DNA from: Nautilus pompilius
Taxonomy: Eukaryota > Mollusca > Cephalopoda > Nautilida > Nautilidae
Assembly (NCBI GenBank): GCA_018389105.1
Contig: JACATO010000689.1
Location: 914,501 to 978,500 of the forward strand
DNA: 64,000 nucleotides
Direction: 5' to 3'
Shown here: positions 4,541 to 63,742 of the stretch, one piece after another
How positions within the stretch are numbered: the stretch's first letter is position 1
Layout: every line of letters starts with the position of its first letter
Made by a program: the position numbers and the translations under genes
Notes under the pieces: generated by a model
Databases searched by the model: none
What the model was told of the DNA's origin: nothing
What the model saw: only the letters and a program-made list of their open reading frames with translations

Positions 4541-5232
4541 CTACAGCACTAATTGCGATGGATGGCCAACTACCTGAAAAAATACCACACGCGGAAAGAT
4601 TGGACCGGCAGGGGGAGAGGTCAGCAAGCAGCGACACCTGGCGTTAATTATTATTACTAATAACGTCTCCGAGCTGAAATGTTGGCCGGTGCATTCGATG
4701 GTTTTGTTCGCGGAGGAAGAAAGAGATCAATACTTCGACACGAAAACCCGTCTTCCCACGTTTCTCCTTTCAAGTGTTCATATTAAAGAAGAAGAGAAAA
4801 CTATCGTGCGGCTGATGTCCAGCAACACAAACCTTTTTCCTGCCATCAGTCCATGGACCCCCCCCCCCCGGGGGTCGATGGAGCGCTGAACTAATGGCGC
4901 CACCGTCCGGAGTTCCTGCTAAATGAAACCACTCGCAGCGAGAAGTTCGGCGGCCCAGAAGAAACATCGAACTTGGGGGTTAATCGAATATCGTCGGATT
5001 TCCGGGTCATCTCCGTAAATGCCCCCCCCGGCCCCCAGGGTTTATTTGAAAACTCGAACATGGCAGATTGGTGCATAATTATAAATTACTTTCGTAGTTG
5101 TGCAGATAACGGACCCCGGGTCCACGACATCGTTGGGATGTAGCAGCAGCTGTCGCTGGACGCTTCATCCCTGCACCACGGATCGACCGCATCCTTGCCC
5201 GAAGGCGGCGACAGGTCTCTCGTCCGCCTTCA
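4541..5232 (+). promoter_or_regulatory. GC-rich 5' region of the MMD-like gene
   Basis: Base composition changes sharply here: 4,850-5,260 is rich in GC and CpG with C/G homopolymers, unlike the flanking DNA. It leads directly into the first coding exon. The coding frame is open back to a TAA at 5,107-5,109 with no other ATG, so this is probably promoter plus 5' untranslated region. No TATA box was convincing, and the transcription start cannot be fixed by eye. Confidence 0.45.
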
Positions 5233-5411
5233 ATGGCTGATATGGACAGATCGCGAATCAGGTGAGCACCGTGTGGATGGATGTGTGTGTGTGTGTGTGC
5301 TGAGGATAGAGCTTCCTTCCAGTATCATTTACCTCTGAGGGTAGATAAAGGATACTACAAACTAGAAGACAACCTACTGTTTGCGCGAGGGTGCTTGAAA
5401 CAATAACAACA

Positions 5412-5470
<59 letters not shown>

Positions 5471-33800: not shown

Positions 33801-36800
33801 CAGTAGCTATAAACTCCATATAACCTCACTGATGTTCATATCAGGATACTGTACAGACCAAGGCATCTCTGTGAGTATTCTGTCAGCCTCTTTATGTTTC
33901 AGATAGTATTTTTTATCATACTGGCTGTATGCTTGGAGTCAATGTCATGTTGGAAGATAGATCCCTGTGCAATGAGACATATTCCTGAGAAAATGGCATC
34001 ACAAATGAAGACCTGCCTGTACCTCTTAGAAATTTAGAATACAGGTTGAGAATCCCTCATCCGAAATCCTTGAGGCCAAATGTGTTTCGGATTCTGGAAT
34101 TTCTTAAATTTTGGAATATAGATATACTGGTATAATTTGGTAGCTAACCTACTGGGAAGTGGGGACTGAGTACAAGTTCATTTACAACATTATAACTACA
34201 TATGGATACATATAGCCTACAGGTAGTTTCATGTAATATTTTAAAATCATTTTGTGCATGAAACCATAAGAAAAGATGTACATTTAACTATCAGAAAGGT
34301 AAGTTATCACTAGGTAGGCATACTGGTACCATAGGGATATCTGCAGGCCTTTTCAACATTTTCAAAGTATATTAACAAGAAAGCACAGAAAAAGCGCAAA
34401 AGTTACGGTGCGTAATGCATGTACGTCAAGCATGTTGGGACCTGCATGTCGCCCAGGAACCTTCACAGAACTTTTTGGAATTTTCCACTGAAGGTGCTCC
34501 AAAAATATTTTGGATTTTGGAGTTTTTCAGTTTTCATAATCTTGGATAAGGGATTCTTGACCTTTACCATCAATTTTCGGCAAATCACTGATACACTTCA
34601 CATCCATAGTGACCACTTTGTGTTAATGTGTATTGTTCTATCTGTACTTGCAGCTAGGTCATTTGCAAGATCTCCACTGGCTCATCTTTCATCATGCAGA
34701 GAACATACCATAAATAATGAAAAATATTTTTGGAAAGTATGAACTTTTTTCCTCAACTTTGTCTCTTTCAAAAGTACCAGTTTTGCATATTCCTCCCCTT
34801 AAATTCTTCTTTACAGCTCCTGAAACATGAAATAGAACTGCAGTCTGCCCCAAGGAGAAGTCTCCAGTAGTTAAGACTTGATTTCTATATGCTTGTCATG
34901 ATATTTCCTTCTGGAAGAAAATATTCACCACACATTCACTACTTTACAATGACGCCCTTTATAGTCTTTTTGTAGCTATGGTACCTTCTTATTGTTAGCA
35001 TGACATCCAATCAGTGTTTTATATCAACACATGACTGTACTATAAAGCATTTCACTTTTACACATGAGCATTGATTCTATCATGTGTTACTTGAATTTTA
35101 TACAGTTTTTTCTGTTTCCATAGTTATTTCCAATACTGAAGCATACATAAAGTTATATGAGGCAGGAATATTTCAAACTTTTATAAAACCCTTTTTTCAG
35201 TATGAGTTCCTAATCTGCTTTTCAAAATAATAATGATGTCTGCTTCTACTATCTGACTTGGTAAATCATTCAAAACTGTGACATAATTACTTAAATACCA
35301 TTTCTGTCTACTAAATGTTTCATTAAAACTTTTAACTTATGCTCTCTTGTTGCCTATAACCCCAATTTTCATTCCTTATCAGAATAAAATTTGAAAACTT
35401 CAGAATTATCTACAGAAACATTTGTAGGCTAACCCAAGTAACTGAAGCCTCTCTAGTAATTTTTTCTTAAGGTTATGGATGGTGATAATCATTCTAGTAA
35501 ATTGCCTTTGAACCTTTTCCAAGCTATCAACATCATCTCTATTCTCAAATTAAATCTGAAGAAATACTTGAACATTTGAACAAGAAATCATTGGTGGTCA
35601 AGGATTAATTGAATCCTATTATAAGTACTGCCGTCATTTCAATTGATTACCTCAGTTTTTGTTAAATAGTGACTAGATAACAACAAAAATTTGTAGTCTT
35701 TATGTAGTAATGAATTTCTACTTCGGTATGTATTGGTTTCTTGTGTGCTATTTTGACAAATAATACACCTGTAAATGATTTATTGTCACTTTTTTCACCA
35801 GTTGGCTGCACTGGTCACCCCACCCTATCCTGGGTTCCTTTGTTTCTGCCCACATCTAAAAATTAAGAGTTCATGTAGGGCCTTTTGACATAGAATTTAA
35901 TAGCAACCCACTGTGGCTTTTTTTTTCTGTAAACCATAATGCAGTCTGCTGCATCAGCGGCTAATTATCAATCCTCCCATTGTGATAACTGCCAGGCACT
36001 GACAGACATCCTATACAAACATGTCTGGTTAGTTAACTGCTGAAAGTAGTTTGATGCTGTTTTTTTAAAGATACATACTTAGTTTATAATAATAAAACTT
36101 TGGAAATAAAATGATTTTGTAGAGTCAGACTACCATCAAAGAGATTACTGTAGTGTTTAACTCCCTTTTTTGTCATGATGATGAAGGAAAAGAAATTACT
36201 ATATTTTAACAGAGGCTCTGATGTAAAATGAAAAGATGATATCCATAATTCACTGATAAAATACCAGGAAAACTAGTTTCAAATACCTTTCATACATTTT
36301 TTAAAATCATTTTGTTCATATGCATTATTTGTAATAATTGGCTCCTTTCACACATGAAAATAAAGCTGATATTTGTTACATCCTTCAGAACAAAACACGG
36401 TAACCTTAAGGCTGTTGCAGATGCTTACATTTCGTCTATCTCTGGCTCCTCTTCCATAGTGGGAGGATATGCAAATTCCCGAACTACTGGTACAGCACCC
36501 TGAGCCCAGCAATCTGTTACTGCCAGGGGCAGCTCTGGAAGAGAGAACAATTCACCAGCATAGAATGTGTATTGTGTCAAAAGATATTGTAGTGCATACC
36601 TTTTCCACCATGCAAGACTCTTTACTTCTTTTTTAATTACTGGCTTCAAGAGTTAGGATGTTCTGACAGCCGTATATAAGATTAAGTTTACAATTCTACT
36701 GCACACATCTAGATCATGACTTAGAAAGATTGAAGCAAAAAATGTAAACAAAGGGACATAGGTTTACTTGTTTTTAAATGGTGTAGTAACTCCCTGACTA

Positions 36801-39800
36801 TTCTTCTTACAATTTCATGCTGTCCAGTTTTGACCAATGACAAAAAAACCTTAATAATATAAATTTTATGTACAATGAATTTAAAATATATTCAACATCT
36901 CAGTCAGAGTAATCAGCCTCCTGACACAGTTGGTTGCTGCTGAAATGTGTTTTTATACCTGCAAAGTATATGTTACGCAATGTTTCTCTGTACAACAAAC
37001 AGTAAGTGAAGAAATACTGCAAACAACTTTACACGCTAATTACATATTGTTTATTGTTGCATGAAAATTTGCCACCAAATAAATATTTAACCAACTTTTC
37101 AAACTTGCGGGATAGAGATGTTTATGATTATATTAATTGCACTTTCCAGCACTAATATTTAGCATGACCATAATAAGTTTTCAAACATTCTGGCATGGAG
37201 AAAATTAGACTTTTACAATGTTTAGTAGAGGCTGATTTTCATTATTTAATAATGATTGTTTCAAGTTTTTAACTGATTACTCAGGGATGAAAGTTTTCTT
37301 TCATTTACTCTTTGCTTAACATCTTAGACTTCTCCGCAGTTATTCAAATGAATAAAAAAGCATGGAGATTGTGTGGGCCATTCAAATTTTCTTTGTTAAA
37401 AAAAAAAACAGTTCCTTCAATATGTACACACATCTGCCTCCAATTCTTTCTGCCACTTCCAGCTGAACTCCTCCTTGTGAGGTGATACAACCCCAAAACG
37501 GAGCCTGTAGATTACCACTATTAAAAGTGGGCATTGTACACGTCTTATCAAACTTCTCCAGATCCAAGCTACACATGAATAGAGGTCCTTCTTACTTTCA
37601 TCACTCTAGAAAACTTTATCGATAACACTCAAGTTTTTTTTACGTGATATTTTGCACTCTTCTACTTACTGATGAATGGTTTCCCTCAGATCATTCTTCC
37701 ATGAAATCCATGATTGCAGAGCATTTTTTACTGTTTATGGAATAATAATGACTTCGCTCTCCTGCGATTCTTTGGAAACCTGTGTAGCAATTTTTCTTCC
37801 ATCTTCTTTTACCATTATCGATAACTTTCTTGTCCTTTTTTGGATGGGCATCTCTATGCTTACTCACACTTTCAGTCACTCTGAACTTCACAATAATACT
37901 GTAGCGTTTGGTAATTGCTATGTTACACTCACCTCTCTATCTGAAAATCCTTTGGTCTTCATAGCTTTCACCTGCTTTCTCATATCACCACTGCACTCCT
38001 TGATTTTCATATTTGATAGTAACTCAACCATACTAAAAGCACTTTTCTTTATAGCTTTTACACAATATAAATTATTCACATACATTTATTTAATCAAAGT
38101 CCACCAGATGTATGTATTCATTTTTAGTCATGTATAATCAAATCTCAAAATCTGGTTGAATACTTACTTGGAAGCAAGTTTCATGTTGCAATAAACAATA
38201 CATAATTAGGATATTCAAAGTGGAGATATTGACAATACTTTGCCTATTGGTCAGTTCCTACTTTTATTAATTTTCCCTAATAAGGGATTGGCCCTGAGGA
38301 GAAAACTGTTTTTCAAGCCAGTTGTACAGTCCAAATAAGCATAAATGCCTGCTATCACTGCACTTTTTTTTTTTTTATTAATAAGATGACTAATAGCCTC
38401 AAAATAACTATCAACCTTCTGAAAAGTTAAGCTTTTAAATTCCATGTAGAATTTAGGCCTGCTGTGAAACCATCACTACAGTGATGTTTGCAGGAGCAAA
38501 AATTTTACATGCTTTTCTATACATGCAGCAGTTGTGTCCAGGTTAAGTTGTACACCTTTCTGTGAAGCAGCTTCATCAATAATCACCTTCATCAGGAATC
38601 CAGTCAGCAGCTGTAACCCCACCTGTAAGCTGCTCACCTTCATCACGAGCAAGAATCTGCCACTAAGACAAAAGGCAAGAAAATTGGCATTTTTTCACTC
38701 AGAAATAAAGATGATTAAGGCAAAAACAAAAATAGCAAAATAACAATGGATACAAATAATATGCAGGATCCTGATAATTTGAAGAGCCTTCAAAGGCATT
38801 TACTAGAAAGGTTTGGGAAATGAAAGACCATAGTTATTCTGCATATTCACCAAAACTGAAACTTCCTACTATCACAGATTGTGTGGTACTGTAATAGAGT
38901 GTTGTAACTCTGAAAGATAAATAAAAGCTACACGAGCTGTATTTTTTTTTTTTTTTTACCTCTCATACTCTTAAAAAAACAAGAGGATGTAGTCACAAGC
39001 TCTTTAAGGATTGTATTAGGCTACTTTTTCAGAATAATTTGTGTAATATAGTAGTGAATGCATGGGACAGTCTACTTGACATATAATATTCAAAATTTGA
39101 CAAGGATCAAATGATAATCAACAAACCATGAATATTAGATTTACACTAACTCATATTTTCTTTTGATTTCTAACCCCTTCTTTGGAACTTTCATACAAAG
39201 TATTGACCAAATTTCCCCAGGGCATCAAGGTCCGAGATGCACATAAATATACAGACCCTTCATTTTCATGTAAATTTCAGTTCTGAATGCTGACAATTTG
39301 GCATTTAAGAGGTGTTTCAGTACCAAATTGGTCATATTTTAATGTTGGTTGATAGAGAATGGAACAGTAGTGACAGAGATTACATTTGACAACCACAGAA
39401 GTTGCCAAATGGATTAGTATGCTGGAGACTGGAACAATTTCACATCATGTGGCAGATGACTTTGACAATAAATTCTTTCCAGAGCCTGGATTCAGCATCA
39501 AACTTTTGGTAGAGCTACTAGATGACATAGTGGGGGCTAATCCAAGACAAAAAGACAGAACCAGGATTGCATTTTGGTCTTGCAAACAAGGAGGAACTAT
39601 TTCTAGATGGTCATTTTATTGAAATCTGACCTTCAAAATGCAAAAGGTTTCAGTTTCTCAACACAAAATCAGCTTTAAGCTAATGGTATGCATTCAAGAA
39701 AACTCTGCATCTGTATACCACTAACCATGGACCACTGCAGAGGATAGCAGGAGTAAGTTGTAGCTATGTAGGATGGATTGAGAAAGACTGGACCGCTGTA

Positions 39801-42800: not shown

Positions 42801-45800
42801 TTTTCGGGGTGGCTTTAATGTGGTTGATTACTTTGATGATCGCTGTCATAATCGCACTGAGTTCAGAGGAGAGACTTTTGGCGATGAGATGCTCACAATG
42901 AATGATGCAGTGCACAGAGATCAAAACAGGGTTGTCTCTCTTCAGTAACTGGAGGAATCCATTCCTCTTCCCCATCATCGACGGTGCTCCATCAGCAGCA
43001 CATGCCGGCCCGGTGGGGCAGGTGGTAGCGGGTTAGCTCCGTAAGGGGACCGTTGCTCCTGTACCGGGTTCGATCCCAGGCTGGGGTCGGAGGAGAGTTG
43101 TCGCTGATGATCGCCATAGCGTGAAACAGCTGTACGACATCTCCTTGGTGTCCGACGTGAGAGAGACCTCCCGGGTCCTTGGGGCCCACGGTGTCGGGGG
43201 ACCGGGCCATTTGTCGGCTCGACGAACATCTCTCAGTAATGAGGAGGACTCGACAGAGAACAGGCCACTTGTCTTTACGGGATGCGATGCCATTGCAAGA
43301 ACCTCGTTCGGAAGTCCAACTCGCTCAACAACAACAACAACAATCAGCAGCACATGAGACTATGTTAGCAATGGGAATGTCATGGTCATTAAAAAAACTT
43401 CACAAGCAGCTGGTATATGTCCTGTGCAGTTGCAGTTGTCTCAAATGATTGACAGAACAGCATCTCTTCACTGAAATAAGCTGCCTCTTTGTAACAAATG
43501 TATGCGAGAAGAATACTCCTACTGTCCCTCACCGTTGACTTGTCAAACTAAATGGTAAATGGCCTTTGTCGAAGTTTACAAACGAGTTGATCCACCACAT
43601 CTGAGGCAATCTCATCGATTCTGCGCCGGACGGTGTTGTTGCTAAGCGGTATAATCGACACGGGATCATCCAATCTTTGCAGTACAGTTTTTGTGAACAC
43701 ACGCAGCACAGGTATGATTAAATCCTTGACAATTGTGTGAGCATTTCCACACTTAGCGAATGAGAAGTGAGATTTCATAGCTAGCGACCAGTCCTGCATT
43801 TTGCATGGATGTCTGTGACTTAAACATCGAGAGTATGGTCTTCTGAGCCTGCATCTTGTTCTCATGATTGGTTTTTAGATCCCGGAAATATGATGGGTCT
43901 TTATCAGCGGGCTTCCTGTGTTTGGATCGCAATGTACTTCCAGTTTTGCCAGTTTCATGCAATCATTGCATAAAGTCTGATCACAAAGTAAATACAGCGG
44001 CAGTCTCTCATCAGGTGGAAGGGCGATAAAGCCATACTTCAGATATTCAACTGAGTACTTACGTACTTTCATCTTAGCTGAGCTGGCCATTATATAGGTA
44101 TACCACTCAGTTCGCTCGTGTGCATCCATACTGTCCCATGAAGTCCCTATCCAGCTTTTCTAGCATCCACTCCCAGTGGTGCCAGCCACTGGGAGCATGA
44201 TCCAACCACACCAGTCCCACCGTGTAACAGTCCAAGATCCGGCTCCTGGCCTTTTGCGGCCAGGCCCACTGTCCAGAGTAGTAGGATGACTTCTGGCCTC
44301 TGGCCACCGTCGGCAGTGCGTATTGTTTTGGTGGCAGAGCAACATGATGCTGTTTGGGGCCGGCAACACCAGGGTAAGCTGACCCGGAGGGACTATGACA
44401 TAATCAGGCGACCAATGGCTACACCACCACCATGCCTGTGAGTGGGTTGACTAGACATAGACAAGAATTCATGGTTGTCGCAATGCTGATGCTGAGTACT
44501 ATTTTCAGTGCGTATTTGAATTTGAACATCGTTTTTGGTAGGCATGCATCTCCGCCTTTATAGAACCAGGCAGCACTCCCACATTTGTAATAATAATAAT
44601 AATAATAATTATACCTGATGTATATGAGATCAGGCCTGAAAGGGTCTCTTCAAGCAACATAAGCATTGCATTTTTATACCTTTGGCCCTCACTTCACCAT
44701 CAAAGAGAGGCACGAACCTATTAAATTTTGTTCACCCCTATTTTACCCCACAAGTGCTGTGGACCCCTTGGAATTTGCAATTCACCCCTGTGGGTCCACT
44801 TGGACCCTGGTTGGGAAACATTGCTTGGATGAATAATTGTAGAAAGTGCTACAGGATATTTGGAACAACATTCCAGTCATCCATTGATAACTTCTAAGGA
44901 AGCATGAAAATGAAGTGTCATGCCTCTATATAAAGCAAAGAGTTCATATACCAAATATTAATTGTGCAATTTGTTCATTTTGTTTTGCATATTTGCTGTA
45001 ATAATGAATTTTGTGTGTATTATGCAAGCTAAGTCCAGTGACTTGCTTCCTTTCTGCACATAATTATAACTAATTAATAAGCACAATCTGCAAGCAGTAT
45101 ACAGTATAAAGATACTCCATTATAGAACTAATATCTCAAACCAACTTTATAAAGGTTAAATAAATCAAATACTACATCATACCTGGTTTTTACATCATCA
45201 ATGACTTGAATTATTTGATTTGATATTTAAGATATATATCTATTTTGTCAAAAAAGAGTAATCATTATAAACGAAACATTCCATATATTTTACAGCCAAT
45301 GAATTTGATCAGAGAATTCACAATTCAACTTCCATACCTCCACTACATGAAGCAGAGCCTCTTTTGCCAACATCACTGTAAATGGTAGGATTTGTTTCTG
45401 TAAATATTTGTCATAGATTTCATTCATCAATCTGTTGATCAACTCATCAATAATGCTTTGCACAAATTCCCTGTTCTCATCTTTTTCAATCATAAGATTC
45501 CTGAAAATAATAAAAATATGTTTAATGCTAGTAATAGTCTGATTATTCTGTCTGCTGAGAGGTTTACCTCCTGTTATGCTCTACTAACAACCTGCTGGAC
45601 CTTTCTCACCACAGAACAGATTAGCACATGAAAGAGAATTTGTTTTGATGCTAGATACAGGTGAATGAAGAAAAACCCAACAAAGTAATTTAAAGCAAGG
45701 TAATAAAAATTAAATTTTATATAAAAGATGGTGAAAACCCGAAAATTAAGAAAACAATTTACTCATCCAATTTTATTAATAAACATTGTCAGTATTTAAC

Positions 45801-51800: not shown

Positions 51801-54256
51801 GATGAAGAGGTCAGGTCTTCCATAGTACCTAGCATAGCTCATTGCATCATGTATCTGCTTGTGGATGTCTCATGGTCTCCTGTGAAGCTTGAGGGTAGAA
51901 CAACAATCTGACCAAAATTTTCACCATTTCCATCATTTATCATTGTGTGCCTGAGGTGGGTATAATCTATGGCTTGCAATTGTTGCTGGGTTAGACTCAA
52001 GTAAAGGAAATGCTCTGATTAAATTTTGCAATACATGTATACCAGGAATTGCTACATAAAGTTGTTAAACTTAAGTGATTAGAACTACGATCTAAAACCA
52101 GTAAATGGTAAACAAAGAAATCATTGGCACTGACTTTCTTGGAAGGGTTTTGGTGCTCCAGTTGATGGATTTTGTTGCTAGATTTGGAAATGGTAACCAT
52201 CTTCACCTTGCCAAAACATCAAAGGATATTGCAGCATCTTAAGATCTGTGTCTTTCTGGAATCCTCTTCAGATTGTTGTGCCTCAGCATGAGTACAATAT
52301 CTCTCTTCTCATGATGCTTGTTAACCAACAGGACAGCAACTTCATTGGTAATTGGAGCAATGAATTGCTGAGAATGGTCTCCATCAGGTCTCTTATCAGC
52401 ATGAATCACTACTCTGTTATCTGTTGAAGGCATGAGCTCTAATACATAGTTAAAAACGTGAACCAAATTATTCTTTTGATGCAGTATGCCTTGAAGCTTC
52501 TTAACTATTTCATTCTTCACTCCAGAGATGACAATGTACCTCTGGTTGCATTGTTCAGTCATATCGCCCATGAAAAATATCTGAACAAATTTTGCTTCTT
52601 CATTTTCCTATGGGTAGTGACCCCCATTTGGTGATAAACCTGACCTTGGATTTTGAATGTAAATATGAAGCCAGTTGGACTTGCATCTTTTGAAGCTCCA
52701 AATGAAGTAATCTGAAAACAGGAGTTGAACTTTCAAAATGAGTCAGGCTCATCTCCATTTAAGAGAAATTTCAATTGGTTTGGAAGTTTTGCAGAGGAGT
52801 CAATTTCACTTTGCCATATGAACAACACAAATCAGGTGATTCACCTGAAAATTTCTTTCCTGAGCAAAATTCACAAATATTTGACATGGTTCCAATAGAG
52901 AATAGACTTTTTGTTGTTATTCTCAGCAAAGATATATAAAAAGCAGCCCTATGCCAATCAAACAGTTCTTTTTCTTGCAGTAGTTTTGTCTAAGACTCTC
53001 TCTAGATGTGCTTCTCTGTCTCTTCAGATATTTCCCTCTCCCTCACTGCAGCCATTCTGGTCCATTATCTAGTCTGACAAAGGTTCTGTTCTAAACTTTC
53101 CCATTCTCTTCCTTCAGCTGTTCTTTTCTGTTGTTGTTCCATATGCCTTCCTCTTTGTTCTAAACTTTCTTGTGTTTTAAATGCAGCCATTCTAATCCAT
53201 TGCTCCTTGTGGGAATTTTCTACCTTTTGTTCTGTTTCCTGTTTATGTGTTTCATTCATTAATTTAACTTTATTTGTAGAGTGACCCAAATTAGATATAT
53301 GAAGTACATACACCTAAAATTGGGGTCCTCTAAGTGCTATGGTTTGGCTGTGAAAGTGTAACAAAGAAATGCATACCCAGTGCTGCACAATTTGTTTCAT
53401 TTTTGTATTATTTAATTTTTGCAAAGTAAGTTGCCAATTATTATCACCTTTTACTTATTCTTTTTTATGGTAAACAAATGTGTTGCAGTGCTGCATGAGA
53501 AAAAGATTTTAGGCCAATGTGTAGTAGCTTTCGTTCATTCATTCATTTCCATTCATTATCTTGTGCTGGGATCCCACAATTTGCATCAACCCACAAGGTG
53601 AAAATGCCTCTGGTCCAGTTTGATATGCTTATTTATTGATATGGCACTGAAGAATCATTGGAGTGTAGGTCATGGAAGCAATGAAGACATAAAACTGTGC
53701 CTTGCCAAAAAGGTTACATCAGGCCAACATGCAGTAGTTAAAACCTTGCCCAGATTCCCAAGTATCTACACCCAAAATTTTGGACCTCAAGGTGGTACAG
53801 TTTGGCCATGATAGAGTAACAAACACACACAAAAATTCCAATCACACAAACACTAGAAAATATGTATTATATTTCATGGTCATGAAAACATGAAAATGCC
53901 ATGCTATACTTGGTACCCTGTACACAAAGATGGTCTGCATACATGGGCTGCCAAGAGCAGCAAAATAATTTCGTGATTTATTTGCATTCCCTGGTCCCAG
54001 AATTGCTGAATAACTTGTCTGTAAATGTGTTACAGTTTTATTCATGTTTGAATGATTTCTATTACCAGCACAGTGAGTGATACAAAGCAACAGTAGTTAC
54101 TGTACAATAAAAATGATGGCAATTTATTCCTTACCAGTGATTCTGATTAAATTTTCCTGGCACAATGTCATACTGAGACACAGTGCTAGATATCTGCTGA
54201 TGCTGTTGTTGATTTGGTTTGGTCTTGTCTAATCTTGATTTACCAGCACGAGACAT
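27873..54256 (-). CDS. C2orf81: C2orf81 orthologue (DUF4639 family), 412 aa
   Basis: Eleven - strand exons join in phase: 54256-54135, 45500-45338, 38662-38587, 36534-36429, 33126-33009, 32439-32305, 31170-31076, 30133-30012, 28795-28752, 28428-28357 and 28058-27873. They total 1,239 nt. Family landmarks are S-Q-Y-D-I-V-P-G-K near residue 30, a conserved Trp at the first splice junction, the helical block ending L-P-F-T near residue 82, then W-Q-I-L-A-R-D-E-G-E (96-105) and D-C-W-A-Q-G-A-V-P-V-V (128-138). R-L-D-P-E-K-L-P follows near 262, and a Lys-rich segment near 290. The function is not established for the family; vertebrate expression suggests testis or ciliated tissue. There are no signal peptide or membrane segments. 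Exon 31170-31076 appears to use a GC donor. The introns hold most of the transposons in this window. Confidence 0.85.
33497..35138 (-). mobile_element. Tc1-family element, copy 1 (with nested insert)
   Basis: The ends are inverted repeats: CAGTATTGGAAATAATTATG at the left, matched by CATAGTTATTTCCAATACTG at the right. TA precedes the left end. The - strand carries a decayed transposase: an H-T-A-x-M-I-K-N-T block near 33,920-33,970 (second catalytic region) and the C-terminal part toward 33,600. The same family recurs in opposite orientation from 40,686. A second element is inserted at 34,042-34,564. It lies in the C2orf81 intron between the 36,429 and 33,126 exon boundaries. Confidence 0.8.
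34042..34564. mobile_element. Nested pogo/Tigger-like non-autonomous element
   Basis: The left end is CAGGTTGAGAATCCCTCATC after a TA; the right end is GATAAGGGATTCTTGACCT before a TA. These are inverted repeats. Internal copies of an A-T-C-C-G/ATTTTGGA theme continue on both sides, as in Tigger-type elements of vertebrates. Its insertion point is proven by the second Tc1 copy near 41,540-41,580, where the flanking sequence is continuous. It has no transposase. Confidence 0.75.
35210..35560 (-). pseudogene. LINE 3' end fossil
   Basis: The - strand reads D-D-V-D-S-L-E-K-V-Q-R-Q-F-T-R-M-I near 35,540-35,490. After decay it continues with L-E-R-L-Q-L-L-G-L, and finally W-x-L-x-N-x-V-x-x-L-N-D-L-P near 35,260. 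This is the C-terminal region after the reverse transcriptase in Jockey/CR1/RTE-like LINEs. Several stops interrupt it. The 5' part is missing, as usual for truncated LINE insertions. Confidence 0.65.
37300..38110 (-). pseudogene. Tc1/mariner transposase fossil
   Basis: Read on the - strand from about 38,020: an HTH-like block K-Q-V-K-A-M-K-T-K-G-F-S-D-R-E-V; a linker; then K-V-F-x-S-D-E-S-K near 37,610 (first catalytic Asp); and W-P-T-Q-S-P near 37,385 (the start of the SPDLNP-type motif). Stops and frameshifts are frequent. The long + strand frame across 37,676-38,137 is its antisense shadow. Terminal repeats were not located. Confidence 0.6.
39340..40460 (+). pseudogene. Tc1/mariner transposase fossil
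   Basis: The + strand remnants in order are T-T-E-V-A-K-W near 39,392, D-W-T-A-V-L-F-T-D-E-S-R-F near 39,795-39,830 (first catalytic Asp), and F-S-P-D-L-N-P-I-K-H near 40,165-40,200 (the third acidic residue is replaced by Lys). Stops separate them. A (TG)n run at 39,910-39,930 interrupts the frame. It lies between the C2orf81 exon at 38.6 kb and the Tc1 copy at 40.7 kb. Confidence 0.65.
42480..44090 (-). pseudogene. hAT transposase pseudogene
   Basis: Decayed open reading frame of the hAT, in at least four frames. The segments are 44,090-43,880 (N-terminal/BED region), 43,960-43,755, 43,865-43,550 (region before the catalytic core) and 42,978-42,480 (core and dimerisation region). The SINE at 43,005-43,342 disrupts the core. 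Such ZBED-type transposases are sometimes domesticated, but the breaks here argue against function. Confidence 0.75.
43005..43342 (+). mobile_element. tRNA-derived SINE with (CAA)n tail
   Basis: The tRNA-like head starts CCGGCCCGGTGGGGCAGG and has a clean pol III B box, GGTTCGATCCC, at 43,067-43,077. A conserved-looking unrelated body follows, then a CAACAACAACAA tail. A perfect 14-bp target duplication, ATCAGCAGCACATG, flanks it (42,991-43,004 and 43,343-43,356), so the insertion is relatively young. It lies inside the hAT transposase. The four or five open frames seen across it are artefacts of its GC content. Confidence 0.9.
44120..44460. other. GC-rich island of unknown origin inside the hAT
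   Basis: This segment lies upstream of the hAT transposase start, between it and the hAT right terminus. Its composition is much richer in GC than the rest of the element, and it has imperfect repeats such as CCACTCCCAGTGGTGCCAGC near 44,166. It is either the element's own leader or another inserted retroposon. No target duplication was convincing. Confidence 0.45.
44588..44608. repeat. (TAA)n microsatellite
   Basis: Short AAT/TAA run inside the hAT terminal region. Confidence 0.8.
46414..46520 (-). CDS. C2orf81: Probable alternative first coding exon of C2orf81
   Basis: An ATG at 46,520 opens 35 codons plus TG, ending at a GTGAGT donor. That is exactly the phase and leftover bases of the main first coding exon (54,256-54,135). 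Spliced to the 45,500 acceptor it restores the same Trp codon. The 36-residue acidic N-terminus (rich in Ser, Glu and Pro, ending V-I-Q-L-F-W) is unlike the main one. An ACCTTAG acceptor-like site lies just before the ATG. Splicing the main first exon into it there gives an immediate TGA. It therefore looks mutually exclusive with the main first exon rather than an internal exon. Confidence 0.6.
47803..49361 (+). mobile_element. Young Tc1-like transposon with IR/DR termini
   Basis: The outer ends are CAGGTGCATCTCAAAAAATT and its inverse; 38 of the first 41 bases match. TA flanks both sides (47,801-47,802 and 49,362-49,363). An internal direct repeat of the tip (TCTCAAAATATTAGAATATTC near 47,984; inverse near 49,157) gives the IR/DR structure of Tc1 elements such as those of fish. 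It sits inside the Helitron helicase region. It is clearly younger than the other Tc1 fossils here, because the ends and frame are almost intact. Confidence 0.93.
48078..49080 (+). pseudogene. Tc1 transposase, one frameshift, altered catalytic site
   Basis: Starting at ATG 48,078, the frame holds through the paired-type HTH DNA-binding half, with the first catalytic Asp in L-F-S-D-E-S (codon at 48,519). It shifts near 48,586, apparently by loss of two bases. It then runs in the next frame to a TGA at 49,078-49,080. The third acidic residue is Glu in S-P-D-L-N-P-I-E-S (48,892-48,894). The second catalytic Asp is Tyr: Q-Q-Y-L-A-P-A-Y at 48,787-48,789. Spacing to the Glu is 34 residues (DD34E). 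The frameshift and the Asp-to-Tyr change make it inactive. From memory it closely resembles Tc1 transposases widespread in teleost fish. Confidence 0.9.
53270..53840. repeat. Duplicated block at the Helitron 5' region
   Basis: A block of about 70 bp occurs twice. At 53,305-53,370 it reads CACCTAAAATTGGGGTCCTC then ...TTTGGCTGTG...GTAACAAA. At 53,768-53,825 it reads CACCCAAAATTTTGGACCTC then ...TTTGGCCATG...GTAACAAAC. Such repeats are common in Helitron 5' leaders. Confidence 0.55.
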
Positions 54257-54994
54257 TTTTGTTTTCTCTCAGTTTTGATATCTCTGTGGTCACTAATATA
54301 ACCTAAAAGAAAAACAAAACAATAAATAAATGTTTATTCTATTATGTACGAGAATGAAATATTATTTTCATTGATCTGTTAGAGTACATTGTCAACAAAC
54401 AGTGAAGAAATCCCATGTAAATACACTTAAAACACAACCAGCAGTGAATGATGATTTAAAAGTCAACAACATTTAAAATAAAAAATCATCATCAAATAAA
54501 TGTAGTAAAGAATTGTAGTTCTTCACAATTAGTCTATGAGTGACAGTCCTTATCGGTAAAAATCTGATTCACTTATGTTCCATATTTAGGTTAGTTCCTC
54601 TAATTATTTAAGCTGAAAATAATAGAATCACTAAAAAAAAAAAAACAATTTTAAAACAGTTCTGCTCCATACTGTCAGTTTGATAATTTTTCTGAACATC
54701 AAAAGCAGAGTTAGACCAATAAACATTTATAGAGATATGTATAATGCACACCAGATTTGTTAATGTCAAACTTACTACACAGTAAGTCACATAGCTTGTT
54801 ATGAGCTGCTGTGGATCAAAATAAAAAAAAAAGACAAATGTTTTCAGCATTGCATCTTGGGCCAAAAATAATATTTGGTAAATGGCCAGATGCACAGTAC
54901 AATGCAAAATCATGTTGCTATCTGAATAAAATGATGAAAACCATAAATTTAGCTGCATTTAAGTATTTAGAAGGACTGTTGGTAGTCCAGTATT

Positions 54995-55090
54995 AACTTA
55001 TTTGATTGCCATGGTTAAGGACCCAAGTTAAAATCTCAGTTAGGACTGGTTTGGCTTAGCATGTTTTTTTTTCACCAAACAGCCACATGG
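54995..55090 (+). repeat. Possible decayed tRNA-derived SINE
   Basis: GCCATGGTTAAGGACC at about 55,007 resembles a pol III A box region, and AAGTTAAAATCTCAG downstream resembles a mutated B box. The distance is too short for a full tRNA head and no target duplication was found, so this is a weak call. Confidence 0.25.
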
Positions 55091-56200
55091 TCCCCCCCAT
55101 CTAAAAATAGAGATTTCTGATAGGGTTTTCTGGGTACATGTGTTAAAGGTTCTGCAAGTAACTTTCAACTGGCTTGCACCTTGACTGCCACTCAAGAGTC
55201 CCCAGCTACTTGCTTAGACACCCACCATAATACCCCACATCTTTCCCATTCTAGCTTACTATTGAGATTTCCTTAGACCTCAGAAATCAGGAAAAGGCTT
55301 CACCAAAAAGAAGTATTTAGACAAGAGTAGTGAATGAAGAAATGTAACCTCTCTGATCATCTCATCATAGAAGTCATTTACACAGGTTTCAGCAAATTTG
55401 TCCTGCTTACTTTCATCCGATCACCCTTCACCTGAGATTTTCTTCTGAGTTAGGTATTTGCTAAACAATTCAGAACTATGTATAGTTATTGCCTTCCAAA
55501 AGCCAAAATGGTTTTGCCAGCTCTCTTATGTAGTAACTGACATACCATACAAGAAAGGTGCAGCACAATGGTTTGTTCGTCTTTTTATTGATACACTATC
55601 ATAAAAATTCCCATTACATAAATCATACTTCCCCTCCTTGTGCCGGTGACACCAGAGTGTTAATGCTGGATCTTTCTTTCTGATCTTTTTTTCTCATAAA
55701 CTTTGATTTATCATCTCATAACATTTGGCTAATTTTTCATCTACTTTACATATTTTGGAAAACTTAAGAATCTGCTGGCTTCTTTACAAACCCCAATACA
55801 GCTGAACTTCTCCACGCTATCTATCCAATCTCTGGCTAAAAGATGTTTTCCACACTTTCTTGTACAAGTTGTCTATAATCTTTCTGAGTAATCCACTTTT
55901 TCCTGTCTTTACCAATTTTTTCCTGAAAGGAATCCCTTTCTCTTTGTATATTCAATATCTTACTAACATCTGCATGACACATTACATTATGTTTGAAACC
56001 ATCACTTCATCTATCATCTTGGCTTTCTTCGTCATGCATACTTTGGAATTTTGCGATAATACGACAACAATAGAGAACTTCAAAATACTTTCATATTCTT
56101 CAAGTTGTCAACAATTTCACCACTGTCTAAAACCGTGAAAAGCAACCAGTATTCACACTTCCTCACTGTCTTATGGATAAAATGGATATTAGAAACACAG
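55090..56200. other. C2orf81 5' intron or leader; nothing assigned
   Basis: The - strand from 56,150 to 55,500 has vaguely coding-like, Lys-rich text broken by stops, which could be an old transposase. No catalytic motif could be read, so it is not assigned. Confidence 0.3.
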
Positions 56201-56202
56201 CA

Positions 56203-56206
<4 letters not shown>

Positions 56207-56233
<27 letters not shown>
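56207..56233. repeat. (TG)n microsatellite
   Basis: Thirteen TG units, followed by a short CT run. Confidence 0.9.
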
Positions 56234-56238
<5 letters not shown>

Positions 56239-57114
56239 TCTCTCTCTGTGTGTTTTGGCTACATGATTTGTGAAAAATGTCCCAAAGTAGCACAGAACAG
56301 ATTTTATGAAAAAAAAACAAAAACAATGTAAATGTACAGTATGAAATACATTTCTATAAATTACAAAAAAATAAATCTAAAAGGTTGATAATCTGTTTTC
56401 CATTAACAGAATTTAAAAGCACAGTACAATGTAAAATAATAAATATTTTAAAATAGTGTTAAGTATAACCCAGAGCAATTTGTAAATATTCATTTGGCAT
56501 TGTGTTTGACTAACAGTACCTATTAATTTTAGTGAGGAAACAGCCACGTTAAGTGCGGAGGTTCACTTCAAAGTCCAGAGAATTAAGTTGCAGTTTTAAA
56601 ATAACTGTTTTTTTTTCTTTAAAAAACAACAAACTAGCTAACTTCTAAACAGTTGTTGATGTTGATGTTGCTGTTGTTGTTCTACATGGACCGCAACAAT
56701 TTTTAAAAGGAAAACGACAAATGGAGCAATGGGCTAAAAAAACACAGGCTTGCGTATTTGTTGACAAGCAAGCGTCTGAAAATCACAAGAAATTAAATTT
56801 AAATAAAAACGTGAAAAATCTCGAAGGGGACCCAAACTTGTTGCAACTCGTCCTTTATTCGGAATAACTGGGGGAAAAAGAAAGAAAGGAAAAAAAACAA
56901 GCCCCCCCCAACTGAATTAATAAGGAGATGGGGGTTCGTTCCTACCCTGAAATACAGTTTAGAACATCAACAAACATGGTCCTTCTGGATGTGGCAGCTG
57001 GCAGAAGTACAAAAGTGAAACAAAAACAGTCTTGTGCGTTTTAGACAGACGACAGTAGAAAAAGAAAAGAAGAGTGTACTACCATGAGGAGGAGAGCCCC
57101 TGTCGCCGCCCCTC

Positions 57115-57123
57115 TATAAAAGG
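57115..57123 (+). promoter_or_regulatory. TATA-like element on ENKD1 side
   Basis: TATAAAAGG is a good TATA consensus on the + strand. It would place initiation near 57,145, upstream of the proposed noncoding ENKD1 exon. Confidence 0.35.
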
Positions 57124-57144
57124 TCGGTTCCCCTGCTTGGAGGA

Positions 57145-57559
57145 GGACACAAACACACCACCGGATGTGCTCTGTTTCTATGGAAATCATACCGCATAAA
57201 ATATCTAGCTTTATATTTCTATAAAAATTAATATTTAAAACTAGTTTATTATTTATATATATATAAATATAACAAAATATATAATCTTATCACTTTGAAG
57301 CTTGGTCTTTTATTATTAACAACGAACCTGTAGCGACTGAACAATATGGCGGTGCGTCGATAGAAATAAGGTTAGGCTTCTGTCGTAAGTTGGTTGAGGT
57401 CTGACTTTGACAGTAGGCTTGCACCACTCTGCTTGTATTCGTGATAAAGGCAACCCTCAGTCGAGTATACCGTACTGTGGATAAATAAAATCCGTTTATT
57501 TTTTGTCTTGTTGAGGCGTGTGGATGTGATTACGCCGAGTAACGGATGTGGAGGACAAG
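57145..57559 (+). other. ENKD1: Proposed noncoding first exon of ENKD1
   Basis: The 3' boundary is a strong donor, ...GACAAG|GTACGT at 57,559/57,560. The acceptor TTTTTCAG at 58,888 begins the exon with the start codon, and an in-frame TAG before the ATG shows that the upstream part is untranslated. The 5' limit is only a guess from the TATA-like element. Confidence 0.4.
57174..57187. promoter_or_regulatory. RFX X-box-like palindrome
   Basis: GTTTCTATGGAAAT fits the RFX site form RYYNYY-N(1-3)-RRNRAC with a 2-bp spacer and one mismatch, the last base (T for C). RFX factors drive ciliary genes across animals. It lies between the two head-to-head genes, about 50 bp from the TATA-like element. 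Confidence 0.5.
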
Positions 57560-57708
57560 GTACGTACGAGTTGTATCCTGTTTGATACTTCTATTTATCT
57601 GTCGGACTACGACTCGCAACAGTCTTTTAGCTTTTGTTGTTTTTTTTTCTTGGCTAAACGTTTTCTTTGTTTTATCGAAAAATTCGCGGACTCGAACATC
57701 CTGTTATA

Positions 57709-57791
57709 CTAGAGACGTTTGAATGAAACCCGGCTGAAGTAGATAACCGGCTGTAATGATATCTGGCCGGGTTTCATTTGAACGTCTCTAG
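57709..57791. mobile_element. 83-bp palindromic MITE with TA duplication
   Basis: Two arms of about 26 bp, starting CTAGAGACGTTTGAATG and ending CATTTGAACGTCTCTAG, are inverted repeats with only two mismatches around a 31-bp loop. TA flanks both sides (57,707-57,708 and 57,792-57,793). It is a mariner/Tc1-type MITE or a similar foldback. It lies in ENKD1 intron 1, 150 bp after the donor. Confidence 0.7.
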
Positions 57792-58974
57792 TATGATTGT
57801 CTACTAATGTAGAGCCTGTTATTTATAATATTTCATTTTAATGTTGGTATTAATGACTGATAAATTGCTAAAAAACAATAAAATATTCAATGCGAGAATT
57901 CCAGGGTGCTACGTTGTACGTATGAGAGAAGAAAACAAAAATCAAATAAGTATTGAGTGTTTTCAAATTATCAGGCGAACTACTTGTGAATAAAGTACGA
58001 GCTCATGAATTCTGCTTTTGCTCATAATAGTAGTAATAATAAATAGTAATAAGAAGAAATATAAGTAATGCTTAATTTAACAATATGTGGAACGATACAT
58101 TAGAGGTTTTGGAGTTGCCAAGCTGGATAAAGGACTGAGAGAGAACTTGATTGATGTATTTTAGATTTAACAATGTGTATTAAAATTTTTTTTCTCACTT
58201 AAAGCGCTAATTCCAGTAGAAGATTTCACAAGTTATCTAATTTGATAAAACAGATCCAGAGGGTTGGGAGGTTTCAAAATTTGTGGAAAGCTTTTCCTTA
58301 AATGGTTTTCTAACAGATTTCAAAAAACCACTGACACATTTTGCTTCTACCACTACTTGGTTGGTAAACCTTTTCATATGTTTATATCCTGACTGCTAAA
58401 ATAGAATTTTTAAGAATTTAGTCTAGTCTGTTTGTTGTGTATTAATATGAACAGTGGTTCCATAAGCTATCTTATCTGTCAAATAATTAATTCAGAGGTA
58501 CACATTTTTCTGAAAATGAATTTGAATACATTGAATATCTGTAAGGTTTTTTTTTTTTTATTTTTTTAAATAGTTTTGTGTGAAATGGTCCAGTGGAACA
58601 GGTTATAAGTTTTTGGATCTATAAGCAGATTTATGAATAAATTTCCTTGACATTTACTTTGGACTTATAGAAGGAAATGTTACAAGAGTCAGATTTAGCA
58701 CTATTGCTGATACACTAGAAATATTAAAACTTTATAATTGAAATAATTTGCTTTCATGAAGCTGAATAATTTTTAAATATTTTTTTCTCTTAAATAATAA
58801 TGATATTGAAAACCAATTGTAGAATTCTATGCTATTTCTGATATCTGACAAACATTTTATAACTTGGAAATGCACTTTGATTTTTCAGAGCAACACGTTA
58901 TACAACGATAGAAAAACAATTATCAAGAAACATTTTCCAGGGAGTCACTAAAGAGGATCTCTGGTTCAAACAAA

Positions 58975-61900
58975 ATGCATCAAGGATCTGTAGGCATGCA
59001 ATTAAAAGTTGATGGATGTGGAATAAGAATGAGCCGTCTGTGTAAAGAAGGTAACTGTCATTACTTGTATTAGCATTAAAACTTACCTGCTACTTGGTGG
59101 TGAGTGAATGCTTGATTGATATTTATTATGATCAACAACACTTTTTGCATGCTTTAAAAATAAAACTAGAAATGTTAACCTTTTGTCTTTTTAAAAAGTC
59201 CTAGAAATCCTGTCACTCAATGTTCAGGCCAACTGTTTGCTTTTTGTTGTAAGCTAATTTGTCTTATAATAAACATGGGCACATGCAAAAACAAAAAAAA
59301 AAAATCATCAAACTTCTATAATACAGAGATGTTTTTTTTAATATAATCTGCTAATCTCATCTCTCTAGTCCAGACTCATAGGCTTTGCCTTGTAATCTTT
59401 CATTTTGTTAAAAAAAGTGATTTATGTATTTAGAGAAAAAAAAAACAGTCAGTGCCCATCATTTTCCAACTACTTTTTCATTGAGGTGGTGAAATAAAGT
59501 TACAAATTTAGAAATAACTGATAGTAGGGGCCTTTATCTCCTCGCCTGCTCTGTTTTATTCTATAAACTAGATTTTAATTTTTGAGCATTTCAAATTTGT
59601 GATTCTGAAAGTTTGCTCAATGAAATTAGACGTGTTTGACAAATATTAAAAAGAAATTCTTAGATCAATGATATTATCAACAAATCTTTAATTAAAGATA
59701 AGTCAGGCTTGTCTAAGAAAAAAAATAATGTGACTCTTCCTTTTATTCTATGAATTACTGATATAAAAATCTCTAGAATTCTTCACTTGTATGTGCAAAA
59801 GACCCCGTGGATACCAAATGCATCCATGTTATTTAGTAAACAAATCTACATTAGTCAAACATAGTATTGTTTAATATTATGGTCTCTCAATGCAGAAAGA
59901 CTGTCCAATAGAGAATTTATCTCTAATCTGCATTTGCTTCATGTATATTAATTGAAAATCATAACAGTTCTCCCATTTGGTCTGACAGAAAATTCTTAGC
60001 TTATACATCCAACAAAAATTTGAAAGAAGTCAACAAATCTGTTCTCATTTTCCTACACGATAATGTTATTAACAAAAACAACAGTCTTAGAATTGGCACT
60101 GTTTGCTTTTTAGGTTTTAAAACAAAGCAAAAAAATTCTATACTCAAGTATATAACAATTTCCAAAAAGCATTTTTTGCATTTTGTCATTTTTTTTTTTT
60201 TTAATTTTTCTCTGTAACTGAATGTATTTTTAATTTTTTCCTTTAAATATTATTTTTGTTGTCCATGCTTTGAAAAAGTTGGCAAAAGCTCAGTTATTTC
60301 CATTTAAAAATTATACTAGTATTATGCAACACTTAGAAATTTTCCAGAAGTTATTACTTGATGCAGTTTACAATTGCTGTGACAGTTAAATTTAATCTAA
60401 CAAGATGTCTGGGATTTATGTATGTTGAAAATTTATTTGACCTGATCATATTTTTACTTCTCCATTTAAAGTGTTGCATACAGCTTTTTGTCACATCTTG
60501 TACTGGTTTTATTAGCAAAAAAAATATAATCTTTATTTTGCCAGTCTTCACTAATGACTGCTGCCATAAGTGAGTTGATTAGGTTAGATCTTTTTATTTA
60601 CTATTTTGTATGCTCAAAAATAAAAATTGTATCCAATAGGAGAGACAAAAAATCCCATTTCTTACTGGAAAAATGGTTCTAAAAAAAGAAATAATATTAT
60701 AAATTGCACAAATTTTGCAATATTTTGTGGTCTACTGGATTAAATGTTTCTACAGGGATATTAATTTCTCAATTCCTTGGCCGAACTAGTAACCTATATT
60801 GGTTTTCCTTTGGTTACTGTAAGTAGTAAGGAGCATTCATTACGACCTAGAGGGTGGTCAAATTCAAATAAATTGCATTATGACAACATTATCGCCTAGA
60901 GGAGTTTACAATGCAAACCCATGGGACATTTTGCCGAGTTAGCTAAAGCATGAGTAAGCGAGAGGAATTGTGAAAGTTTTTGACCGTGGAAATAAATCAG
61001 AGTTTATTTATACATGGACAAGATATTCCTAGTAGTGACACAAACGATGATCATGCAAAACATGGGCACTCGTCAAAGCTTGGAATTTTCTAACCTTTTT
61101 CTAAGTGGTTTGCCAAATTTTCCATTTGTATAAAGTCAAATATTTTGAATCCGCATACCACTGAGGAAGGCAACTTTCAGAATTCTACTTGATGAAGCAT
61201 GGAGAGACAAAAACTCACATTGATAGTGTTTGAAAACTTCAGTTACATTCTGGCAGCCATGCAAATTGCTGCACTACAACATATGGTTAGTACTTATGAA
61301 AGCTTGTGGTATTTTGTTATTGGTAAGATCTTTGTTTCAACAGGGGACTGTTTTCTGCTTGGGATGGATCCAAAAAAACAGTAACTCATGAAAACCTTGA
61401 TTTTTTTTTTTTTTAAATTTATAAAATTTTTATAAATTAAAATTGGAACAAATTTTGATACCAAAATGAAATTTCTAACATAATCACAAAAATACTGTGA
61501 AGAAACACTATGTACATATGAAGTGCTTCCTATCAGCATGCTATCTATCTAATGAAAGAACAACATGAATTAATAATATCAGATTCATTATTCTTGTAAC
61601 TCTTGAATACCAGTGGTTTGATGCTTGATTATTCATTGTTTTCCTTTTGTTAGTTTTGAAGCCGAAGAACTTCATAAGAGATAATGTGAAACAACTGCGG
61701 GAGGTTCAGAAGACATGTAAACAGAAACAACAAAGTGGTGCTAATCAGCCACTCAAAGCTTTATGGAAGTCGGACAAATATAAGAATGTTCCATCGAAAG
61801 TGAAGCTAGCTTTGGAGGTGTGTAAAAATGATGCAATTATTTTGAATGCTAAACCCTCTTATTATTTTTTAGTCATCTTTGTAAAAAGTTACTGTACTTA

Positions 61901-63742
61901 ATCTATTCTGATTTTTTTGTAAAAGGAACCACAGGCTGCTAGACCATCTACTGCACAATTTCTCCGAGCTCATTCTCGGGTTGGTCAGCCTGTCAAGTGT
62001 CCTCCCTCTCGTCCACATAGTGCATGTGAGCTGCCTTTGGCAAAGCCTGCTGTGCCACCAGCTTCTGATGCAGTGAAGGTAAATGTGAAGCTAGGTTCAT
62101 TCCTCATCACTTGCTGCAAAGTATCTCTTGACAGTTAATATTTTCTGTTAATACTATATGTACGCTTAGCTTATTAACCCTTCCTTTGCAGCTGTTGACC
62201 TTTGTTGCAGGGTGGTATCTTTTTAATATTTTGGTGTCCTTTTTAAATAAAGATTATTGTGGTAGTTAATATAAACTAATTTGATTGCATACACGTTTTT
62301 ACAATACTTTTCATACTCTTGAGAGTTTGAATTATTTTTAACCTTTGGAACAAATTTTCTTTGTTTTGTTCTGGTTGCTTTCATGGTGTAGCAGATAACA
62401 TGATTGGCACTTTTAAAATTATGTCATTGTTCATGCATGTGTCCCTATTTCATTTAAACACCTGGAGAATACAGCTTTCTTTAACAGTTTATCTTTATGC
62501 TGCTTCCCTAGACTGCTTTTCCATGCCTTTTATTTTTTTTTAACTTTTGTTACTCGTAGTACATACTAAAAGATCATTGGAATAAATGTATTCAACAAGA
62601 ATAAGAAGCAGCTAATGTGAACAGATTTATCTGATATAATGAATGGTTTAAATATTTGTACTCATGGCTGTGCTCAGGTGACTGATTTTCTTATAGAACA
62701 AAATTGGTAAATATTTCTAAGCCCCAAATGATACATAGTTTGCTAGTGACATGGGAAGTGCAATTTTTATCTTGAATGTAATGGATGCTGAAATATGTTT
62801 ACAACAGTATTACTTTACCAATATGCTGCTGTAATTAGATTTGTTTGACAGTGAAGGAATAGCTGCTGTCATCATGGAATGGTTTGAGCTGACTTTTTAT
62901 ATAGATGCCAGTCTCTTTATCTATTTCATTATTTGACATGTTGCTTTAGACTTTTTAAAGCAATAAAAGGATGTTCTGCATACTGACATAGCATAATCTA
63001 CAGGATGTTGACTGCTGTCTAAGAGCCTGCACTGCAGCAGTGTGTTCTTTCCGTTGCAGGTGAAACTGGTTCACAAGAATGTGGACTTCATTAAAATGAA
63101 CAACCAGGCAGTTAGACATAACAGCCTGAACAGGTGTCCTAGTCTGTCTGCACTAGATGACATGAAGAATAAACAAGATGGTGATTTGAAGAAATACAAG
63201 AAAGGCGAGGTACCTAAATAGTAAGTTAACAACAAGCATCACCCCTTTCTATCCATCAGAAATTACAACATGAATAAAAAGATTTTGTGATTGGATTCTG
63301 TCAGCTTTGTAATGTTTTGTATATTTTGATTTTCCCAGGTGTCCCTTCAGTTTTTCTAGTGTTTTTTAATTGTCTACCTTTGATTGAATGAATATTTTCT
63401 CAAGCAGTCAACCACCAGTGTCTCACCAGCTGGTCTTTTGTACCTGAAGGTGTACTTGACATCTTTAGTTTTTATTATTGATAATGGCTTGTTGTGTGAA
63501 GATACTTTTTGTAAAACAAGTTTTATCATTTTCAAGATTGAGATTTAGAGGAAATCTCTTTTAATTGAGATGTGTAGAATTAGTTGAGTACTTTTTCTTT
63601 TCTAGTTTAAAGCAAAGAAAAATTCAATGGGACCAAGAAGAGAGAGACAAAATTGCTAACACTCCTGATCCATCTCTTCCTCCTGGACACAAAATTTTGC
63701 CAGAAAATGAACGGCTGGATACTTTGCAGCTTTTAAAGAAGA
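58975..63742 (+). CDS. ENKD1: ENKD1 (enkurin domain-containing 1), 5' part
   Basis: Five coding exons are in the window: 58975-59050, 61654-61817, 61926-62078, 63060-63220 and 63606-63742; the next exon is past the right edge. All junction phases agree. The first 230 residues include L-K-P-K-N-F (27-32), Q-P-L-K-A-L-W-K-S-D-K-Y (57-68), F-L-R-A-H-S-R near 92-98, N-V-D-F-I near 138-142, and the enkurin-domain start. The last has G-E-V-P-K-Y-L then D-P-S-L-P-P-G-H-K and E-N-E-R-L-D-T-L, matching vertebrate ENKD1 in order. ENKD1 binds microtubules and acts at centrosomes and cilia. The start is the first ATG after an in-frame TAG in the same exon. The N-terminus before the conserved part is only about 26 residues, much shorter than in mammals, so an exon in the 2.6-kb first coding intron could have been missed. 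Confidence 0.9.
59051..61653. other. ENKD1 intron; unassigned sequence
   Basis: AT-rich intron. From 60,830 to 61,300 the composition is more balanced and reads like old coding or repeat sequence (short open frame 61,199-61,384), but no family could be named. Confidence 0.35.

Follow-up and report, generated by a model that had tools for sequence, protein, structure and literature searches.

In a 64-kb window of the Nautilus pompilius genome (the whole stretch of DNA analyzed here, 64,000 nucleotides; assembly GCA_018389105.1, contig JACATO010000689.1, forward-strand positions 914,501 to 978,500), a C2orf81 gene on the minus strand and an ENKD1 gene on the plus strand diverge around a single CpG-rich stretch. 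Such a layout fairly suggests that the two genes share one promoter or have promoters placed back to back, and we regard this, its RFX-controlled variant included, as probable. On balance we favor the reading that both genes are transcribed from the CpG-rich promoter region through untranslated first exons, with an X-box-like 14-mer in that region being incidental. A preliminary description of this DNA had proposed a shared ciliogenic promoter. The divergent layout around one CpG-rich stretch and the cilium- or centrosome-related nature of both products stand, whereas X-box control is at most slightly backed by the sequence and the shared starts derive from splice-like sites.

On the minus strand lies a gene of the C2orf81 family (DUF4639, PF15479). 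Four coding exons splice in frame to give 156 residues, and the joined protein matched the Pfam DUF4639 profile with E = 8.7e-30 (104.6 bits against a gathering score of 27), upholding the name that the gene had been given. The exons are as follows.

54135..54302, minus strand: first coding exon of C2orf81, with the ATG at 54256; contains YDIVPGKF
45338..45500, minus strand: second coding exon of C2orf81, NLMIEKDENREFVQSIIDELI..HVVE
38587..38662, minus strand: third coding exon of C2orf81, WQILARDEGE..
36428..36534, minus strand: fourth coding exon of C2orf81, LPLAVTDCWAQGAVPVV..; border at 36428 approximate; DUF4639 E = 0.006 alone

The open frame 45290-45580, which holds the second exon, matched DUF4639 by itself (E = 3e-7, 30.2 bits, cut-off 27). 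Omission of the third exon changed the E-value of the joined protein from 8.7e-30 to 5.4e-18. When 29001-38999 was scanned on the minus strand with Pfam, no further C2orf81 exons emerged, the one weak match being a piece of the known fourth exon, and the frame 27876-28091, tested as a later exon, did not qualify as one. A search for a solved relative of the C2orf81 fragment returned five matches at chance level (best E = 0.43). The first coding intron contains two overlapping plus-strand frames of a Tc1-type transposase (HTH_Tnp_Tc3_2 and DDE_3, 48042-49080) and a minus-strand Helitron helicase-like fragment (Helitron_like_N, E = 1.4e-18, 51636-51869).

The plus-strand gene is ENKD1. Between 58975 and 63742 it has five coding exons, which splice to give 230 residues, and the joined protein matched the Enkurin profile (PF13864) with E = 4.5e-06 (27.5 bits against a gathering score of 23.6) over profile positions 1-46 of 92, in agreement with its earlier naming. 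The assignment to ENKD1 rather than to another Enkurin protein relies on the resemblance of its N-terminal half to human ENKD1. Presumably the remainder of that domain is encoded past the end of the window.

58889..59050, plus strand: first coding exon of ENKD1, with the ATG at 58975; acceptor-like site at 58889 below the 7-bit cut
61654..61817, plus strand: second coding exon of ENKD1
61926..62078, plus strand: third coding exon of ENKD1
63060..63220, plus strand: fourth coding exon of ENKD1
63606..63742, plus strand: fifth coding exon of ENKD1, covering Enkurin profile positions 1-46

The joined coding exons confirm that the two genes point away from each other on opposite strands. The gap between them had been put at a few hundred bases; the start codons (54256, minus; 58975, plus) are in fact 4,718 bases apart. 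The smaller figure depends on untranslated exons that we infer from splice-like sites, scored by splice weights with a cut of 7 bits. The interval 56946-57559 is the space between a minus-strand donor-like site (56945, 7.2 bits) and a plus-strand donor-like site (57560, 9.5 bits), which presumably were the supposed ends of untranslated first exons in the preliminary description. The minus-strand site carries little weight because it is one of seven with at least 7 bits in the 3.7 kb from 53900 to 57600 on that strand. The plus-strand site is listed below.

57560..57565, plus strand: putative donor (GTACGT, 9.5 bits) that would end an untranslated first exon of ENKD1

An acceptor-like site (54302, 10.7 bits) abuts the first coding exon of C2orf81 on its upstream side. 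Within this exon there are in-frame stops 5' of the ATG, and its reading frame continues into the next exon. We also considered whether C2orf81 might have a coding first exon at 57 kb. The minus-strand open frame 57041-57286 matched no Pfam family at E-values up to 1, and, with the conserved N terminus at 54.3 kb, the idea was rejected.

Promoter-like DNA was seen in one place between the two start codons.

56401..58300, no strand: CpG-rich promoter-like stretch; CpG o/e 0.55-1.54 in 400-base windows starting at 56401-57901, against a mean of 0.30 for the whole 64 kb

The remaining members of the top 25 CpG windows are far off, within 101-1200, 4401-6200, 8001-8500, and 42801-43400. Both coding starts are CpG-poor, with o/e values of 0.15-0.35 and 0.19-0.34 in the windows containing the two ATGs, and so neither gene seems to begin next to its own ATG. 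In a bidirectional promoter, by definition, the two divergent start sites are no more than about 1 kb apart. Since the start codons enclose a single CpG-rich stretch, the genes could plausibly share a promoter or have promoters placed back to back. Leftward C2orf81 transcription and rightward ENKD1 transcription would both start in the CpG-rich region that holds the interval, and each untranslated first exon would be joined to the coding exons at 54.3 kb (C2orf81) or 58.9 kb (ENKD1). Starts near the interval have indirect support from the acceptor-like sites that immediately precede the first coding exon of each gene, from the in-frame stops 5' of the C2orf81 ATG, and from the confinement of CpG-rich DNA between the start codons to windows starting at 56401-57901.

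Counting against this reading, the CpG-rich stretch could be the promoter of ENKD1 alone, with C2orf81 starting elsewhere and the two genes being neighbors by accident of gene order. The CpG peak is on the ENKD1 side, rightward of 57.2 kb, and overlaps an inverted repeat in part; the C2orf81 coding start is 2.7 kb from the left edge of the interval, its untranslated exon being a proposal. However, CpG o/e was at most 0.47 in the 400-base windows starting at 53501-56301, and the acceptor-like site just 5' of the C2orf81 coding exon calls for an exon upstream. We consider a promoter serving ENKD1 alone rather unlikely.

The inverted repeat (57706-57794) has 29-base arms that are 93% complementary and separated by 31 bases; it resembles a small hairpin element and adds to the CpG count. 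A partial 33-base match to it was present in one of the fetched loci, L031. For the interval 56946-57559 itself, no match pointing to a repeat origin was found in 318,400 bases of sequence, a small sample.

The interval contains the motif that had been taken for an RFX site.

57174..57187, minus strand: X-box-like 14-mer, ATTTCCATAGAAAC on the minus strand and GTTTCTATGGAAAT on the plus strand

The motif, described as a 14-bp palindrome, is present exactly at this place, but the palindrome is imperfect, with five of seven pairs complementary. The claim that it fits the X-box with one mismatch is true of the plus strand against RYYNYYATRRNRAC; the minus strand, which had gone unmentioned, fits with zero mismatches (loosest consensus, RYYNYY N1-3 RRNRAC). 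The published form has an N1-3 spacer; the AT-spacer form RYYNYYATRRNRAC, taken here to be an X-box, was found in no paper by a literature search. From GTTNCCATGGNAAC, a strong form of the X-box, the 14-mer differs at two positions, and places with two mismatches to it occur twice in the 64-kb window against a shuffle mean of 2.23.

In a bidirectional ciliogenic promoter, RFX, perhaps with a FOXJ1-type forkhead factor, would bind 57174-57187 and activate C2orf81 and ENKD1 alike in ciliated cells and in sperm. We consider this unlikely. The zero-mismatch fit of the minus strand to the loose consensus speaks for it, as does the finding that, when the interval was dinucleotide-shuffled 1000 times, 2.2% of the shuffles contained a zero-mismatch fit with the AT spacer fixed. 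Against it, 56% of the shuffles contain such a fit with the N1-3 spacer, and none of the five stricter consensuses in the available part of PMC2375033 occurs in the interval. Across the window, zero-mismatch fits to RYYNYYATRRNRAC numbered 2 (mean 2.82 in 100 shuffles), and fits with at most one mismatch numbered 81 (mean 55.45; one of 100 shuffles reaches 81), eight of the 81 being copies in a minisatellite near 7.4-8.0 kb. The interval has five fits with at most one mismatch, at three places (57078, 57174, and 57215) of which two count on both strands, against a length-scaled shuffle mean of 0.53. This slight excess in window and interval would favor the RFX model. The 14-mer is nonetheless a weak match, not clearly beyond chance, and the X-box evidence adds little to the case for a promoter. 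The minisatellite (7445-8003) consists of 8.5 copies of a 66-base unit that are 97% alike and is largely inside a 179-codon open frame (7384-7923); no stretch of that frame passes alone in Pfam, and its matches look like repeat artefacts.

In the 727.6-Mb assembly there are 29 exact copies of the 14-mer and 10 of its letters in reverse order (either count may be a lower bound), a difference that would favor an RFX site. Markov models of order 1 to 3 were trained on the window and on the retrieved loci that surround copies of the motif; the motif was masked in some training runs and left in place in others. Over all training sets they predict 20.4-29.0 copies of the 14-mer (20.4-28.5 with masking, three sets; 21.7-29.0 without, one set) and 12.3-20.5 copies of the backward control. 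The 14-mer is thus about as frequent as composition gives, or slightly more so, which counts against RFX, and the control falls under its prediction. Among the 28 other loci, 19 are CpG-poor (median o/e under 0.5); none of these has an o/e of at least 0.6 around the motif. That value is reached by 6.6% of 822 background windows, which predicts about 1.3 such loci, and the lack of any is a further point against an RFX site. Nine loci that are CpG-rich throughout were set aside for this count. Over all 29 sites, nine reach an o/e of 0.6, the site in this window included, compared with 35.0% of 1273 background windows. The copies elsewhere show no tie to promoter-like DNA, and the flanks of the 29 copies (500 bases each side) share no similarity. 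The nine CpG-rich loci (L009, L012, L013, L015, L025, L026, L027, L029, and L036) have a median CpG o/e of 0.82-1.11 and may be a second organism's sequence in the assembly or an unmethylated compartment.

Other elements in the interval were chosen by eye from 13 words, five of which are absent, and are weak for that reason. Their counts were compared with shuffles of the interval.

57115..57122, plus strand: possible TATA box, TATAAAAG; mean 0.073 per shuffle
57346..57352, plus strand: YY1-like element, ATGGCGG; mean 0.021 per shuffle
56969..56976, minus strand: forkhead-like core, TGTTTGTT; mean 0.04 per shuffle
57161: CCGGATGT, one of the words chosen by eye

The forkhead-like TGTTTGTT is about 200 bases from the 14-mer, as would suit the RFX model. 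If TATAAAAG at 57115 serves as a TATA box, the rightward start would be near 57145, to the left of the 14-mer, and the X-box-like site would then be part of the transcribed ENKD1 sequence instead of separating the two starts. No small RNA gene was detected behind the TATA-like element by Rfam at gathering scores in 54000-60000. On the counts above, we judge it more probable that the 14-mer matches incidentally than that it is an RFX site.

RFX control of C2orf81 is absent from the titles of papers found under C2orf81 or its mouse name, 1700003E16Rik, and DUF4639 gave no literature. Neither ENKD1 nor C16orf48 is named among the matches listed for these names with RFX, FOXJ1, or X-box. Human C2orf81 and ENKD1 are on different chromosomes; that an RFX- and forkhead-driven bidirectional promoter would couple C2orf81, a central-pair protein, to ENKD1, a centriole/cilium protein, in this lineage, unlike in human, seems to us doubtful. 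ENKD1, C16orf48, and C2orf81 are all absent from the main text of PMC5838959. In the available part of that paper, the X-boxes of human RFX targets mostly lie no farther than 500 bases from the start site in either direction, a window called robust, and the 14-mer would fall within 500 bases of the proposed starts, in keeping with RFX control. According to the part of PMC2375033 at hand, a Drosophila study, an X-box upstream in one species does not predict RFX-dependent expression, an X-box that two species share is a good predictor, and control genes have X-boxes as often as targets do, the last of which weakens the RFX model. One paper, PMC5245798, came up for X-box, RFX, bidirectional promoter, and cilia together.

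In vertebrates, each of the two proteins has been linked to the cilium or the centrosome, which the RFX model would lead one to expect. C2orf81 had been said to have no known role. Papers of December 2025 and April 2026 contradict this in their available portions: imaging of mouse ependymal cells placed GFP-tagged C2ORF81 at the central pair of their motile cilia (PMC12979858), and in the epithelium of the fallopian tube C2orf81 is described as restricted to motile cilia, with a reduction in one hydrosalpinx sample (PMC13096173). The same portions do not name ENKD1. The available text of PMC12116779 describes ENKD1 as a centrosome-associated protein, bearing out what had been said of it. As C2ORF81 has already been imaged at the central pair (PMC12979858, available portion), inference from coregulation would add little. 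If the two genes do share a promoter, they would make one more divergent ciliary promoter pair and place C2orf81 within the motile-cilium program of this animal too.

Divergent animal gene pairs may have bidirectional CpG-rich promoters. The present pair is like these in that two genes diverge with one CpG-rich stretch between them, and differs in that the coding starts are 4.7 kb apart and the transcription starts are those we infer. As in the ciliary X-box promoters of PMC2375033 and PMC5838959 (available portions), the loosest consensus, RYYNYY N1-3 RRNRAC, fits near the proposed starts; unlike them, the 14-mer is a candidate site that matches none of the stricter consensuses tried. The plus-strand gene encodes an Enkurin domain like ENKD1 in the accessible part of PMC12116779, although the joined protein is without the second half of that domain. 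The minus-strand gene belongs to the same Pfam family, DUF4639, as the C2ORF81 central-pair protein in the part of PMC12979858 at hand, from which it differs in that 156 residues were joined here, a profile scan down to 29 kb having yielded no later exons.
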